From the NCBI GenBank assembly GCA_003224175.1, contig QHYQ01000200.1, positions 1-33,122 of the forward strand: a stretch of DNA of 33,122 nt. The letters are read 5' to 3'. The stretch comes from Acidobacteriota bacterium (GTDB lineage Bacteria > Acidobacteriota > Terriglobia > Acidiferrales > UBA7541). Made by a program: the position numbers and the translations under genes. A model generated the notes under the pieces. It worked only from the letters and a program-made list of their open reading frames with translations, did no database searches and was not told the DNA's origin. Of this stretch, positions 27,018 through 33,061 are shown piece after piece; positions within the stretch are counted from its first letter, which is position 1, and every line of letters starts with the position of its first letter.

Positions 27018-27204
27018 GGACGATTTCTCCTTTGTGTCTCGAACTCAGTCGAGATTCGACGCTGCGATTTTGGATTCCTGGGGGAGCATTAATATATACC
27101 GTCGCGCCTCCGCACACAATGCTGGACATGCGCGGGAACTGTTCTACCGTAGCGGAAGCGGCGCGTGCCCACCGGAAGCCGCGTGCCAACCGGAAAATAA
27201 CCTG

Positions 27205-27300
27205 ATGATCGGGCAGACCATGTCGGACTATCGCATTTTGGAGAAGCTCGGCGGCTGGATGGCATCATCTACGAAGCCAAGACCTCAAACTGCACCGCGG
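27205..27300 (+). pseudogene. Remnant of a Ser/Thr protein kinase N-terminus
   Basis: MIGQTMSDYRILEKLGG then, after restoring one nucleotide at each of two places, (W)MGIIYEAKDLKLHRG, which is the typical start of acidobacterial Ser/Thr kinases (xYRILEKLGxGGMGxVYxAxDxKLxR). Confidence 0.6.
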
Positions 27301-27354
27301 GCTCCGCGGGTACCGCTTCCCCAATGCTTGAAATCACAAGGAGAAGGGCATAAA

Positions 27355-28602
27355 GTGCCGCTACTTGGAGTGCCTAGCCCCTTGCTGAAACCCAGGACAA
27401 TTCACCTGCCGGGAATTTGCGTTTCACTGCTGATGATCGTAACTCTGGCTGCTCCAGCCCTAGAGGGACGAATTGTAGCCATTGGCGATGTTCATGGCGA
27501 CCTTACTGATTTCGCTTCCATCCTTCGACATACGGGCCTGATTAACGACAAAAGTAACTGGATCGGTGGCGGCACTGTCCTGGTGCAAGTCGGCGACGTC
27601 GTGGATCGTGGTCCGAAGTCTCGTGAATGCCTCAACCTGCTGATGGCGCTGGAACGCCAGGCGCGCAGACAAAAGGGGAAAGTGATCGCCTTGCTGGGCA
27701 ACCACGAAGTGATGGCCATGATGGGTGACCTGCGCTACGTTTCTCCCGAAGACTACCGGGGCTTCGTCACGGAACAATCGGAGAAGGTGCGCGAGGAAGC
27801 CTATCAGGATTATTTGGATTTCGCATCGCACCACAGCCCCGCGCGCGCTGCCGTTCCCGCTGACCAAATGGCACGCGAAAAATGGCTGCTCGAACATCCC
27901 CTCGGATTCTTTGAACGCCGCGACGCCTTCAGTCCCCAAGGTGTCTATGGCCACTGGCTCCGCGAGCACGATGCCGTCGTGGAGATTGGCGATGTCCTGT
28001 ATGTGCATGGGGGCCTGAATCCAAACACTCCCTTTGGCGACATCCAGAAATTAAATCAAGAGATTCGTTCAGAACTCGCCGCCTTCGATTCTCTGTGGCA
28101 ATCGCTCTCGAAAAAGAAAGTAATCTGGAGATATATGAGGATCGAGGAGGCTCTCCGCCAGGCTGAAGTCGAGTGGAAGGCCGTTCAGGCCGACGGGCAG
28201 GTGGCCCCTGAACTGAAAAATGACCTTCAAAAATTTCTGGGCTTTTCTGCCTGGTTTGTCAATTCTCCGGATAGCCCGCTCTGGTACCGAGGTCTGGCCC
28301 TGGAGCCCGAAGAAACTCTCAAGGCAGGCGTGGATGCGATGCTGGAGCGGCTGAAGATTGGGTACATCGTCTGCGGTCACACTGTGCAGCCCGACTTTGA
28401 GGTCAACCATCGCTTTGGTAACCGTGTTTGGTTGATTGATACAGGTATGGTCTTCGGCGGCAGGGCATCCGCGCTGGAAATCCGTAACGGAGCTTTTACG
28501 CCCGACTATACCGACAAGCAGCCGCAAACATCACTGCCAGCAACCGGAAGTGCGACTTCTCCGGTGGACTCCAATCGGTATACTGGCGGGCCACAGCAAT
28601 GA
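27355..28602 (+). CDS. Calcineurin-like metallophosphoesterase, Shewanella-like protein phosphatase type, secreted or membrane-anchored
   Basis: Within ORF 26929..28602; likely GTG start at 27355 after AAGGAG. Hydrophobic N-terminus ICVSLLMIVTLAAPALEGRIVAIGDVHGDL; VQVGDVVDRGPKS; ALLGNHEVMAMMGDLRYVSPEDY; LYVHGGLNP; VCGHTVQPDF. Confidence 0.88.
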   Translation: MPLLGVPSPLLKPRTIHLPGICVSLLMIVTLAAPALEGRIVAIGDVHGDLTDFASILRHTGLINDKSNWIGGGTVLVQVGDVVDRGPKSRECLNLLMALERQARRQKGKVIALLGNHEVMAMMGDLRYVSPEDYRGFVTEQSEKVREEAYQDYLDFASHHSPARAAVPADQMAREKWLLEHPLGFFERRDAFSPQGVYGHWLREHDAVVEIGDVLYVHGGLNPNTPFGDIQKLNQEIRSELAAFDSLWQSLSKKKVIWRYMRIEEALRQAEVEWKAVQADGQVAPELKNDLQKFLGFSAWFVNSPDSPLWYRGLALEPEETLKAGVDAMLERLKIGYIVCGHTVQPDFEVNHRFGNRVWLIDTGMVFGGRASALEIRNGAFTPDYTDKQPQTSLPATGSATSPVDSNRYTGGPQQ

Positions 28603-28958
28603 TTCCTTATATTGAGAGCGCTCTGAATGTAAGGCGCGAGGAATTCAGGCCTTCCTCGCTCCTATTCCTCTACCTGTTCCTGGTGATCGGCTGCTACATC
28701 ATGGGACAGGCCGTGGGAGATGCCCTGTTCTTGAGCGCGTTTCCCACGTACTTACCCCACGTCATCGTCGCCACGGCGCTCGCAGTGGGCATTTTCACTT
28801 CGGTCTATATCCGCCTGTCGCACCGACTCCGCCTGGAGTTGCTCGTTATCGGCTCACTGTTGTTCTTCGGGCTCGGCTTCGTTGGCGTTGGGGTTGTGCG
28901 CGTTGTCCGTCAGACTGTTGTTCCTCCAGACGCAGCACCGAATGTCGGAAGTAAGTGA
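28599..28958 (+). pseudogene. N-terminal part of NTP/NDP-exchange-transporter-like (Tlc-like) membrane protein, frameshifted relative to the next ORF
   Basis: ALNVRREEFRPSSLLFLYLFLVIGCYIMGQAVGDALFLSAFPTYLPHVIVATALAVGIFTSVYIRLSHRLRLELLVIGSLLFF; start codon overlaps the phosphatase stop (ATGA). Confidence 0.65.
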
Positions 28959-31542
28959 GAAGCCGTCCTCCGCGCCTGACATGCCGAAGAACCTTCGCCA
29001 GGTCTGGGCCTATATTCGTGCTTCGCGGTACCTGGTGCTGATCACCGCCTTGATCCTGGTGGGTTGCTGCACCACCGCCATTATCGGCTACCAATTCAAG
29101 CTCATCGCTTACAAGAGCTTTAGTGGAGACAAAGTAGCGTTGGCTGCATTCTTTGGCCGCTTCAACGGCTACATCGGCCTCGCCTCGTTCATAGTCCAAA
29201 TGCTCCTCACCGGGCGGCTGTTGCGATGGTTCGGCATTCGGGTGACGTTATTTGTAATGCCGGTAGTGTTCCTGGGGGGCAGCATGGGCCTATTGCTGGC
29301 TCCCGCCCTGCTGACTGCCTCCATCCTGAAGGGCAGCCAGGGTCTGCTGCGCTATTCATTGGACAAATCCACGACGGAACTCTTGTACCTTCCTGTGGTG
29401 CCTCCGAGGGTAAAGAGTCAGGTCAAGTCGTTTATTGATGGTTTCATTTGGAGGATGGCCGACGGACTGGCCGGTGTAACTCTTTTCGTTTTTGGAAACA
29501 GGATGAAGTTCAGCCCTGGCCGCATCAGTTTGGTGAATTTCGTATTCCTTTTCGGATGGTTGGCGATCGCCTACGGTGTGCGACACGAGTATCTGAAGGT
29601 ACTACGCAGTGCCATCGAGCGGCGCACACTCGATCCAGAGCGGACTGCTGCTGGAACAATGGACGCCAGCACGATTGAAGTGCTGGCACAGCAACTGCAG
29701 CAGGCCGGTGAGCAACAAGTGCTCTACGGCTTGAGCTTGTTTGAGGTAGGGAGCGAAGCGGCATGGCATCCCGTCCTATCCGGCCTGTTGGAGCATCCGT
29801 CCGCTGTGGTTCGCCAACGGGCGCTGCATATTCTTGCTGAGTCCGGGCGTCATCCGATCGTGGCACAGGCAGAGAAGCTGCTCGGAGATGACGCACTTGA
29901 AGTGCGCGCGGAGGCGCTTCAATACCTCGTGGTACACGCGCATAAGGATCCTCTGGAGCTGCTGAAGATGACGACGGACGTACCCGCCCATTGTTTGCAG
30001 TCCGCGCTCGTGACCTACCTGGCGCGGAGTCGCGATACGGATCACGTCGTTGCGGCCCAGACCGTTCTGCAAACGATGCTCTCCAGTATAGGTCCAGAAG
30101 CTGAGGCCTCACATCGCGAGGCAGCCCGCGCGCTGGGAACAATCCCATCCCCTTGTGCGTTACACGCTGAGCTATCGGAGTTGCTCCGCCATCCGAATCT
30201 CGGCGTTGTGGAGCAGGCCCTGATGAGCGCGGGCAAGATTCGGGTCGGCGAGTTCCTGCCTCTGATCATCGAAAGCTTACGGGAGCCACGTTTGCTGGGC
30301 GCGGCACGGGTCGCGCTGGCTCAATATGGAGACGAAGCTGTCGGCGCGCTTGTCGATCGGCTCAACGACCAGGAAACTCCAACGAGTGTTCGAAAGAGAA
30401 TCCCCGCCGCGCTGGCACGCATTGGCACCGTCAAATCTGCTGCCGCCCTCGCTGGCGGTATCGTCCAGAGCGATCCAGAGCTTCGTTACGAAGTAATTAA
30501 AGCGCTCAACAAAATTCACACGCGAGATCCAGCTTTGATGCCGTCCGGTACGGACATCTCCCATATGCTCGATTATGAGTTACTGGGCTATTACCGTTCC
30601 TTCCAGATTCTGGCGGCATTGGACATGCAAAATGGAAAGCCATCTGCCAAAACGCAGTTGCTGGTGGTCGCTGCGGTGCGAGAGCGAATGGAACAGGAAT
30701 TCGAGCGCATCTTCCGTCTATTGAGCTTGGTTTATCCGTCTCGGGATGTCTACAACGCGTATGTGGGTTTGACTTCAAGCCGGCCACAGCTCCAGGCTAA
30801 CGCCCTCGAAGTCGTGGAACACCTTCTTCCTTCAGACCTCTACCGCCGCGTCGTGACCGGAGTGGACCCGGACAGCAGCCCGGTGCAGAGGCTGAATTTT
30901 GCCCAGCGGCTGTGCCGTTCCAGTGTCGCCTCTCCCACCGAAGCCCTCCGCATTCTTCTCCACTCCGGAGACTATTGGCTTTGCGCCTGCGCTCTGCATG
31001 CGGTCGGCCAGGGGGGCCTTGCCGAGCTGGCAGAGGATGTGCGCCGAGTTTTGCACGATGATCCTTTGCTGGACCAGACCTGGGCATGGACGAGCAGGCG
31101 ACTTGGTATCGTCGAAACTTCGAAAGGAGCAACAATGCCTACTGTTCTCGAAAATGTTGATCTCCTGCGGAAGGCCACGATTTTTGAGGGCATCTCCACG
31201 CAGAGCCTGCTTCGTATTGCCGCCATCACAAGCGAGCTCGCTTGGACAACCGACGAGGTGGTATACCAAGAAAATAGTCCGGCCGAGTCGATGTTCCTCT
31301 TGCTGGAGGGGGAAGTGGAGCTTCGCTCAGCAAGGATGGCCCAGCGCCGAGGAGAGAATCAGATGATTGGATCTCTCGCGGCCCTGGGCGGCGGAACTCA
31401 CACGGAGTCAGCGGTGGCCACTCGAGCAACGCGCGCCTTGCGGATTGACATGGAAGATTTCTTTGACACGATGGCGGAGGACTTCAATGTCACCCGCGGC
31501 ATCCTCGCGGTGCTGGCTGGCCTGGCGAGCCGCGCGGCATGA
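28882..31542 (+). CDS. Remainder of nucleotide-transporter-like protein fused to HEAT repeats and a C-terminal cyclic-nucleotide-binding-like domain
   Basis: TM-rich N-terminus (YLVLITALILVGCCTTAIIGYQFKLIAYKSFSGDKVALAAFFGRFNGYIGLASFIVQM...GLLRYSLDKSTTELLYLPVVP), HEAT-like repeats (LLEHPSAVVRQRALHILAESG; LLRHPNLGVVEQALMSAGKI), cNMP-like beta-roll (VVYQENSPAESMFLLLEGEVELRS). Confidence 0.8.
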   Translation: MALGLCALSVRLLFLQTQHRMSEVSEKPSSAPDMPKNLRQVWAYIRASRYLVLITALILVGCCTTAIIGYQFKLIAYKSFSGDKVALAAFFGRFNGYIGLASFIVQMLLTGRLLRWFGIRVTLFVMPVVFLGGSMGLLLAPALLTASILKGSQGLLRYSLDKSTTELLYLPVVPPRVKSQVKSFIDGFIWRMADGLAGVTLFVFGNRMKFSPGRISLVNFVFLFGWLAIAYGVRHEYLKVLRSAIERRTLDPERTAAGTMDASTIEVLAQQLQQAGEQQVLYGLSLFEVGSEAAWHPVLSGLLEHPSAVVRQRALHILAESGRHPIVAQAEKLLGDDALEVRAEALQYLVVHAHKDPLELLKMTTDVPAHCLQSALVTYLARSRDTDHVVAAQTVLQTMLSSIGPEAEASHREAARALGTIPSPCALHAELSELLRHPNLGVVEQALMSAGKIRVGEFLPLIIESLREPRLLGAARVALAQYGDEAVGALVDRLNDQETPTSVRKRIPAALARIGTVKSAAALAGGIVQSDPELRYEVIKALNKIHTRDPALMPSGTDISHMLDYELLGYYRSFQILAALDMQNGKPSAKTQLLVVAAVRERMEQEFERIFRLLSLVYPSRDVYNAYVGLTSSRPQLQANALEVVEHLLPSDLYRRVVTGVDPDSSPVQRLNFAQRLCRSSVASPTEALRILLHSGDYWLCACALHAVGQGGLAELAEDVRRVLHDDPLLDQTWAWTSRRLGIVETSKGATMPTVLENVDLLRKATIFEGISTQSLLRIAAITSELAWTTDEVVYQENSPAESMFLLLEGEVELRSARMAQRRGENQMIGSLAALGGGTHTESAVATRATRALRIDMEDFFDTMAEDFNVTRGILAVLAGLASRAA

Positions 31543-31678
31543 TGTCGAAACAGTTATGGACGTGCCTCGAAAACGTAAAAGAATTTGCTCAAGAAACTGC
31601 ACGATGAGAATGACCGGAAAATCGTTAAGAGCAAAGGCTACACAATCGCTACCCGCGGAACCTCGAAAGGAGTGTTCA

Positions 31679-32512
31679 ATGTTCTACCGACGCGCCTCGC
31701 TTCTACTCGCTGTATCCGTATGGCTGAGTGCCGCCAGTTTAGCTCAAGGACCCATTCAAGGCAGCCCGCAAAATGAACCCAACCTGACGGAAGAGCAACA
31801 GAAAGCATTCCTGCTGAATGCCAAGGTAGTAGCCAGTAAGCAGCTCGGCAAGGGCATTACACACCCTTGGCGATTGACACTGAGCGATGGCCAGCTGACC
31901 CACGACGCCGCCTTCCAAGTCGTCGACGAACATGAGCGGGGAAAGCAGTTCGACGATGGACATACGGAATACAATTTCGTCGACTCCTACCACTACGACA
32001 TCGCCGGGTACGAGTTGGCTACATTGATAGGCATGAGTGACATGATTCCCGTTTACGTAGAACGCGTGTGGAACGGCCAAAAGGGTGCTCTGTCTTGGTG
32101 GATAACCTGGAAGTGGGATAACCTCATGCTCCGTCAGCAGAAGCTAAGCGCACCGGACGCCGAAGCTTGGAATAAGCAGATGTACAAGGTTCGGGTTTTC
32201 GACCAGCTCGTCTACGATACAGATCCTAACCTCACCAATATTCTCATCACCGAGGACTGGAAGATCTGGAGGATAGACTTCACCCGTGCCTTCAGGCGCT
32301 ACGAAACCTTGCAGGCTTCCACTGATCTGGTGAAGTGTGACGGGAAATTGCTGGAGAAGTTACGCGCGCTGAATGGTGACGAGGTCCTGGAGAAAACCAA
32401 GCCCCACCTCAGCAAAGCCGAAGTCCAGGCGCTCATGGCGCGACGGGACAAGATCGTGGCTCGTTTCCGGCAGCTCATTGCCCAAAAAGGCGAGGAGGCC
32501 GTGCTGTATTGA
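31679..32512 (+). CDS. Secreted protein with protein-kinase-like-fold signature (FAM20/HipA/PI4K-like), function unknown
   Basis: In-frame ATG 31679 inside ORF 31367..32512, preceded by AAAGGAG. Signal peptide MFYRRASLLLAVSVWLSAASLAQ. VRVFDQLVYDTDPNLTNILITEDWKIWRIDFTRAFR resembles the catalytic D..N / ID(F/H)..AF segments of kinase-like folds. Confidence 0.75.
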   Translation: MFYRRASLLLAVSVWLSAASLAQGPIQGSPQNEPNLTEEQQKAFLLNAKVVASKQLGKGITHPWRLTLSDGQLTHDAAFQVVDEHERGKQFDDGHTEYNFVDSYHYDIAGYELATLIGMSDMIPVYVERVWNGQKGALSWWITWKWDNLMLRQQKLSAPDAEAWNKQMYKVRVFDQLVYDTDPNLTNILITEDWKIWRIDFTRAFRRYETLQASTDLVKCDGKLLEKLRALNGDEVLEKTKPHLSKAEVQALMARRDKIVARFRQLIAQKGEEAVLY

Positions 32513-32705: not shown

Positions 32706-33061
32706 TGGTGGAGGCGGGGGGAGTCGAACCCCCGTCCGAAAAGCGCTACGGCCCGAAGCCTACATGCTTATCGCATTCGATTTGGTTCGCCAGCTGCGCT
32801 AGGAACGCGCAAGACGCGCTGCCGGCTAGTCCGATTGATCTCGCCGGAAAACCACGGACCGAGGTCCGCCGGCCAGCCCACTGTGCGACGCCTCGATCCG
32901 AGCCCGTAGGCAAAGCTCGGGGAGACGGGCTACGCTAGGTTTTTCTAGGCAGCCAGAGCCAACTCAGTGTTGGCAGTTCTATTTTTCCACCCGATTGCGG
33001 GCAGGTGGCGCCCGGCATGCCTTCGGGTCGCCACAGCTTCCGTCGAAACCGTGTCGCCCCC
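32706..33061 (-). ncRNA. ssrA: tmRNA (transfer-messenger RNA)
   Basis: Reverse complement begins GGGGGCGACACGGTTTCGACGG and ends CGGGGGTTCGACTCCCCCCGCCTCCACCA; acceptor ends pair (GGGGGCG / CGCCUCC) and CCA is encoded. Tag ORF 32974..32945 reads GCC AAC ACT GAG TTG GCT CTG GCT GCC TAG = ANTELALAA*. Confidence 0.97.

Follow-up and report, generated by a model that had tools for sequence, protein, structure and literature searches.

Gene order and the products of P and T

The window analyzed here is a stretch of 33,122 nt (contig QHYQ01000200.1, GenBank assembly GCA_003224175.1) from an Acidobacteriota bacterium whose draft genome (5.6 Mb in 624 contigs) is 85% complete. The original prediction placed three consecutive genes on the plus strand, and reading the sequence confirmed them in the order P (phosphatase), T (transporter) and K (kinase-like). 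The TGA stop of P overlaps the ATG start of T within ATGA (28599-28602) and a gap of 136 bp separates T from K, both as predicted; K is preceded by its own AAAGGAG. The interval 27202-27351, ahead of P, might hold the remnant of a gene, but it matched nothing in Pfam and was discarded. About 190 bp downstream of K lies a tmRNA gene on the minus strand (32706-33061; tag ANTELALAA; Rfam RF00023, 169 bits).

P (27355-28602, plus strand, 415 aa) starts with GTG preceded by AAGGAG and carries the leader ICVSLLMIVTLAAPALEG, which is hydrophobic at residues ~19-36. It contains the full set of metallophosphatase motifs (GDVHGD, GDVVDRG, GNHE, HGG and GHT) and matches the Pfam Metallophos family at 2.4e-15. 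Among solved structures the Shewanella tyrosine phosphatases 2z72, 1v73 and 2zbm score best (E = 1.5e-26), with PP2A/PP1 and ApaH structures far behind. The description of this gene as a Shewanella-like, calcineurin-type phosphatase with a hydrophobic leader was therefore well founded. P also shows weak matches to ApaH-type models, and an identity as ApaH/Ap4A hydrolase was considered and ruled out since the Shewanella-like protein phosphatases (SLP) are much closer than the ApaH structure (E = 0.03). By homology P is a Shewanella-like protein phosphatase, very probably exported; its phosphatase activity is inferred. It shares all metal-site motifs with SLP such as 1v73 and 2z72, and differs from them in that it adjoins or is fused to the kinase-like K and nearly always has an export leader.

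The prediction had described T as a Tlc/nucleotide-transporter-like protein with HEAT repeats and a cNMP-like domain whose ORF is damaged here, and both statements agree with comparison to the intact 937-aa homolog of the closest relative (L003, a metagenome-assembled genome). The N-terminal piece (28599-28958, plus strand, a 119-codon frame) corresponds to residues 1-86/94 of that NTT/TLC-type transporter, after which the frame is lost. The rest (28882-31542, plus strand), consisting of a transmembrane part, HEAT repeats and a cNMP-binding domain, lies in another frame and corresponds to residues ~181/187-931, so that 86 to 100 residues are absent and the frame is shifted. The HEAT repeats and the C-terminal cNMP-binding domain (31246-31479; PF00027, 43.7 bits) were matched by Pfam, and the TLC part is truncated and frameshifted. 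Intact T relatives match TLC (PF03219) at 49.1 and 46.9 bits against a Pfam cut-off of 21 and also contain the HEAT and cNMP parts. The match between T and the plastid ADP,ATP carrier structure is weak (1.4e-5) but falls in the correct region. Since T is broken, this copy of the gene set may be undergoing decay or may reflect misassembly; no second T copy was detected in the 85%-complete genome.

The NTT-HEAT-cNBD fusion architecture is already known. Such carriers are widespread in free-living bacteria, uncharacterized and with no function reported (Major 2017, PMC5381601). T has the same architecture, and differs from the published cases in being tied to a secreted kinase-like protein and a phosphatase. 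Among T relatives the cNMP-binding domain is either fused to T or encoded by a separate adjacent gene (L036 1039-1446, L122 7449-7931, L127 11281-11685 and L090 3185-3607). Clusters L065, L036, L111, L112 and L136 each contain at least two NTT-type T genes, some of them short and others long or in divergent orientation; these could serve different substrates or directions.

K, its relatives and its active site

K (31679-32512, plus strand, 277 aa) begins with the signal peptide MFYRRASLLLAVSVWLSAASLA (31679-31744), as had been predicted, and is FAM20-like by homology, with a kinase fold and phosphotransfer inferred. When a profile of 50 K members was searched against all PDB chains, the best match was FAM20A (7e-13), followed by zebrafish and human FAM20C (2-3e-8), Caenorhabditis elegans FAM20 (3e-8) and FAM20B (4e-7); PI4K2 came next at 2e-3. 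The FAM20 match is collinear in two stretches that span the two kinase lobes and the C-terminal helix, and includes beta3, helix C (E-I-A-A-Y-x-L), the catalytic Asp-Arg, Asp-x-x-R-A-F and a C-terminal helix ending in G-x-x-V. Only the family profile reached FAM20: a phmmer search of the PDB with the single K sequence found nothing meaningful, and the window protein (P0004) matched no Pfam family, PF06702 included. Among the 50 members, Pfam kinase matches were to PI3_PI4_kinase (34), HipA_2 (32) and Fam20C (PF06702; 17, best 3e-4). The kinase-like signature noted earlier in this gene is present, and the profile search, which ranks FAM20 first among solved structures, upholds the kinase-like assignment. 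Structure prediction added nothing to it. AlphaFold2 of K (four sequences) gave a pLDDT of 42.5 and a pTM of 0.31, which is uninformative, and the fold assignment rests on profiles because of this low confidence; no fold is claimed from the model.

K resembles FAM20 (FAM20C, FAM20B and the pseudokinase FAM20A) in its predicted export, in its C-terminal helix, and in the helix C sequence E-I-A-A-Y/F-x-L-D, the D-R of the catalytic Asp and the D-x-x-R-A/G-F motif. Like FAM20, the K family holds both active-looking and degenerate members. It differs in being bacterial, in its length of ~280 aa without the long N-terminal segment, in an Asn (Asn187) in the catalytic loop, and in its linkage or fusion to a phosphatase and linkage to a nucleotide carrier. 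K has not been filed as a FAM20 member because the family model does not match the window protein, the FAM20 disulfides are absent (K has a single Cys) and the beta3 Lys is replaced. The CotH spore-coat kinases, HipA and SCO1664 (TIGR03843) belong to the same broad group of atypical bacterial kinases. Individual K members weakly match the HipA_2 and SCO1664 models; no HipA or CotH structure appeared within E = 10 in the K profile search of the PDB. We know of no gene neighborhood like that of K for the HipA, CotH or SCO1664 families. FAM20 was treated as a eukaryote- or metazoa-specific cluster in one kinome survey (PMC9758233), and a paper on FAM20 evolution searched animal genomes and did not mention bacteria (PMC5865150).

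Active-site residues were compared in an alignment of 139 K relatives. The catalytic segment VFDQLVYDTDPNLTNILITEDWKIWRIDFTRAF (32195-32293) contains Asp182, Asn187 and Asp200, of which Asp200 is invariant (139/139), Asp182 is found in 126 and Asn187 in 119 sequences; the Asp-Asn-Asp residues are kept in ~86% of members. Asp182 and Asp200 align with the D-R-H and L-D-N/H motifs of FAM20. Asp102 and the helix C partner Asp107 are encoded at 31982-31999. Position 102 is acidic (D/E) in 133 of the 139 and falls within two residues of the FAM20C Glu/FAM20A Gln site, where the alignment is ambiguous. In FAM20A a Gln takes the place of the Mn-binding Glu (PMC7948968, PMC5413348). The ATP-binding Lys position of beta3 (residue 80; 31916-31918 in K) is Lys in 70, Arg in 39, Gln in 28 and His in two sequences. 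It covaries with position 107: Lys or Arg occurs with Glu/Asp (109 sequences), Gln occurs with Asn/Asp/Ser (28) and never with Glu. The window K has Gln80 with Asp107. The original prediction cautioned that AAFQ (residues 77-80) stands where the ATP-binding Lys might be expected, which is correct, and the pairing of Gln with Asn/Asp is conserved in one clade.

All Gln80 proteins, the window K among them, form that clade (bootstrap 100, SH-aLRT 99), and 28/28 retain Asp182-Asn187-Asp200 together with Asp102. Because the Gln proteins form one clade and keep the trio, the altered beta3-helix C pair is read as an inherited redesign and not the decay of a single gene. The sequence does not tell whether catalysis is lost, retuned or redirected by the redesign. 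Gln at the beta3 Lys throughout a well-supported clade, with the Glu partner replaced by Asn/Asp/Ser in every member, could mean that the proteins of this clade are pseudokinases with a non-enzymatic, binding or activating role like that of FAM20A. Pseudokinases do arise in the K family, as some P-linked K domains elsewhere have lost the catalytic Asp (CDD, LDD or QDD in lineages f43, f29, f50 and f64). Examples with CDD/LDD are P-K fusions (L131 5701-7602, L132, L133, L134, L137 and L125) and K genes overlapping P (L111, L112, L116 and L121). The degenerate copies in those lineages are mostly accompanied by intact K copies and by T, a pairing that recalls FAM20A-FAM20C. The Q clade, however, keeps its catalytic residues in full, and a Q-clade K is the sole detected copy in genomes G210, G196, G258, G122, G180 and G274, so that no active partner to regulate is evident. 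We regard the pseudokinase reading of the window's clade as unlikely, but as one that has to be kept in mind.

The class of substrate is a separate question. The same logic of export, phosphorylation and removal would also hold if K resembled FAM20B or PI4K in function, phosphorylating glycans or lipids (envelope polysaccharide or phospholipid) and not proteins. The profile does match FAM20B, a xylose kinase, with PI4K2 next in order, and PI3_PI4_kinase is the commonest Pfam match of individual members; FAM20A and FAM20C nevertheless outscore FAM20B and PI4K, and P groups with protein phosphatases. A glycan or lipid substrate thus appears doubtful.

The window's genome has a second K gene (L147 3161-4010, on contig C125 of G000; found at the same place in L002), which is 76% identical in DNA sequence and split into two overlapping frames. 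A Ser/Thr kinase gene lies downstream of it, as seen in L002.

Co-occurrence, linkage, fusion and predicted export

Across 297 Acidobacteriota genomes, 59 contain K and, at a cut-off of E ≤ 1e-24, 51 contain P (61 at 1e-10); a long NTT-HEAT T protein (bits ≥ 200) is encoded in 49. Co-occurrence amounts to 49 genomes for K and P (odds ratio 578, Fisher p = 2e-43), 38 for K and T (p = 4e-23) and 31 for P and T (p = 2e-16). T occurs more widely than K, with 11 genomes having a long T and no K, and it must therefore have other roles too. These tests ignored the relatedness of the genomes; local gene linkage is evidence independent of them. For the linkage analysis, profiles of P, K and T were used to annotate 120 regions, about a dozen of which had been picked for P or T and not for K. 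Forty loci hold P next to K or fused with it, mostly with gaps of less than 300 bp or overlapping, and 25 of them have a T gene no more than 5 kb away. Both counts are lower bounds owing to contig ends. K without P within 3 kb (81/139) is likewise partly a result of contig ends.

Single chains in which P precedes K are encoded by 18 ORFs from 17 genomes. On the K tree the fused state requires ~9 changes, at least five of them forced by strongly supported branches, and it has therefore changed repeatedly. P and K distances are correlated (r = 0.69 over 39 linked pairs; 0/2000 permutations as high), which is partly common descent. Gene order varies between loci. At L003, where K is 63% identical, the same three families adjoin, with the P-T pair kept on one strand and K divergent across a 242-bp gap. 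At L036 one strand carries T-P and the opposite strand T-K, L072 has P-T then K, and L135 has K-P-T. The co-occurrence of the three families anticipated for Acidobacteria is thus strong and is accompanied by repeated P-K fusion.

Neighbor clustering of the regions found no conserved substrate gene. The only other recurrent linked genes are FHA-SpoIIE/HATPase regulators in some lineages and general Ser/Thr kinases. FHA-GAF-SpoIIE-HATPase and RsbW-like HATPase genes are found in or beside the K-P-T cluster at L125 (9285-11393), L134 (4062-9204), L116 (226-11709) and L137 (14198-16486), and the L134 cluster also includes a STAS protein; together these are likely a partner-switching regulator. No K relatives were found in viral contigs in three scans (a narrower alignment and single proteins), nor in plasmids and phages; for the distribution outside Acidobacteriota, a single scan of genome contigs found only close relatives.

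The extracytoplasmic location predicted for both enzymes is backed by their leaders. With a mean Kyte-Doolittle value of at least 2.0 over 11 residues ahead of the catalytic domain as the threshold, a hydrophobic leader was found in 94% of K (n = 126), 92% of P (n = 26) and 94% of fused P-K proteins (n = 18), compared with 27% of control ORFs (n = 985), which are mechanical ORFs and only a rough yardstick. Example leaders of K and P look like ordinary signal peptides. With leaders on at least 92% of each group, K and P very probably reside beyond the inner membrane, and the two halves of the fused proteins very probably on the same side of it, although this is prediction only.

As an alternative, the genes could serve the extracytoplasmic salvage of nucleotides or phosphate. 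In that case T would import nucleotides, P would be a periplasmic nucleotidase or Ap4A hydrolase, and K an accessory that binds nucleotides or handles small molecules. The best-characterized NTTs serve intracellular parasites and plastids by nucleotide import or exchange (Major 2017, PMC5381601), and the weak ApaH-type matches of P fit such a role. P is far nearer to the Shewanella protein phosphatases, the Asp-Asn-Asp residues kept in most K members would be needless for salvage, and the fusion of P with K suggests that the two act on a single target, in opposition or in sequence. Salvage is therefore considered improbable. The broken T and the fragmented draft assembly leave a negligible chance that the genes are accidental neighbors or an assembly artifact, since the same genes adjoin in L003 and in ~36 other genomes of many families, including the single-contig G125 (P and K); chance is ruled out for the linkage by this recurrence across the phylum, the co-occurrence and the 40 P-K loci, and the damage to T is not covered by this argument.

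A proposed role in reversible phosphorylation outside the cytoplasm

We consider it fairly probable that P, T and K represent one copy of a module for reversible extracytoplasmic phosphorylation that is conserved among soil-dwelling Acidobacteriota. The original interpretation is supported for the module, for export and for kinase kinship, and its chemistry is left inferred. Homology, leaders, linkage, fusion and kept catalytic residues can be read from the genes themselves; ATP export and its direction, kinase activity, an envelope substrate, the opposition of K and P, and regulation are inferences. No substrate common to K and P has been demonstrated, and no experiment on any member stands behind this reading.

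To our knowledge, the bacterial periplasm is regarded as being without ATP, and for this reason one would not expect kinases among periplasmic enzymes. Since a kinase that is exported requires a source of nucleotide beyond the cytoplasm, a neighboring NTT-type exchanger would be the obvious supplier. Most likely, T in the inner membrane would move cytoplasmic ATP out and the ADP formed outside back in, an exchange presumably driven by the cytoplasmic ATP/ADP ratio. Exported K would spend this nucleotide on the phosphorylation of envelope proteins (or glycans), and exported P would strip the phosphate off the targets of K. The HEAT and cNMP parts of T, presumed cytoplasmic, could gate the transporter, and the FHA-GAF-SpoIIE, RsbW-like and STAS proteins of some lineages suggest stress-type control. 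This full scheme, a dedicated ATP-driven system of reversible envelope phosphorylation in bacteria in which T exports ATP, K spends it, the often-fused P resets the target, and cNMP binding and (in some lineages) partner switching exert control, is put forward tentatively and could well prove wrong.

A literature search covering extracytoplasmic or FAM20-like kinases of bacteria, ATP in the periplasm, fusions of SLP with kinases and the function of NTT-HEAT proteins turned up no account of the module; only open-access sources were covered, and absence is not proof. Eukaryotes supply the luminal kinases of their secretory pathway through a membrane ATP/ADP exchanger. If the proposed module is correct, the division of labor is the same, with T drawn from an unrelated transporter family and the bacterial envelope taking the place of the ER/Golgi. 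Bacteria would then possess an equivalent of secretory-pathway phosphorylation, and ATP would have to be present in the periplasm. Joint inheritance of a kinase, a phosphatase and a nucleotide carrier, the first two even fused, would offer a concrete and testable way round an ATP-free periplasm, and the module would give the NTT-HEAT-cNBD carriers their first functional setting. It would also extend the FAM20-type secreted kinases, treated so far as animal enzymes, into bacteria, which bears on their origin.
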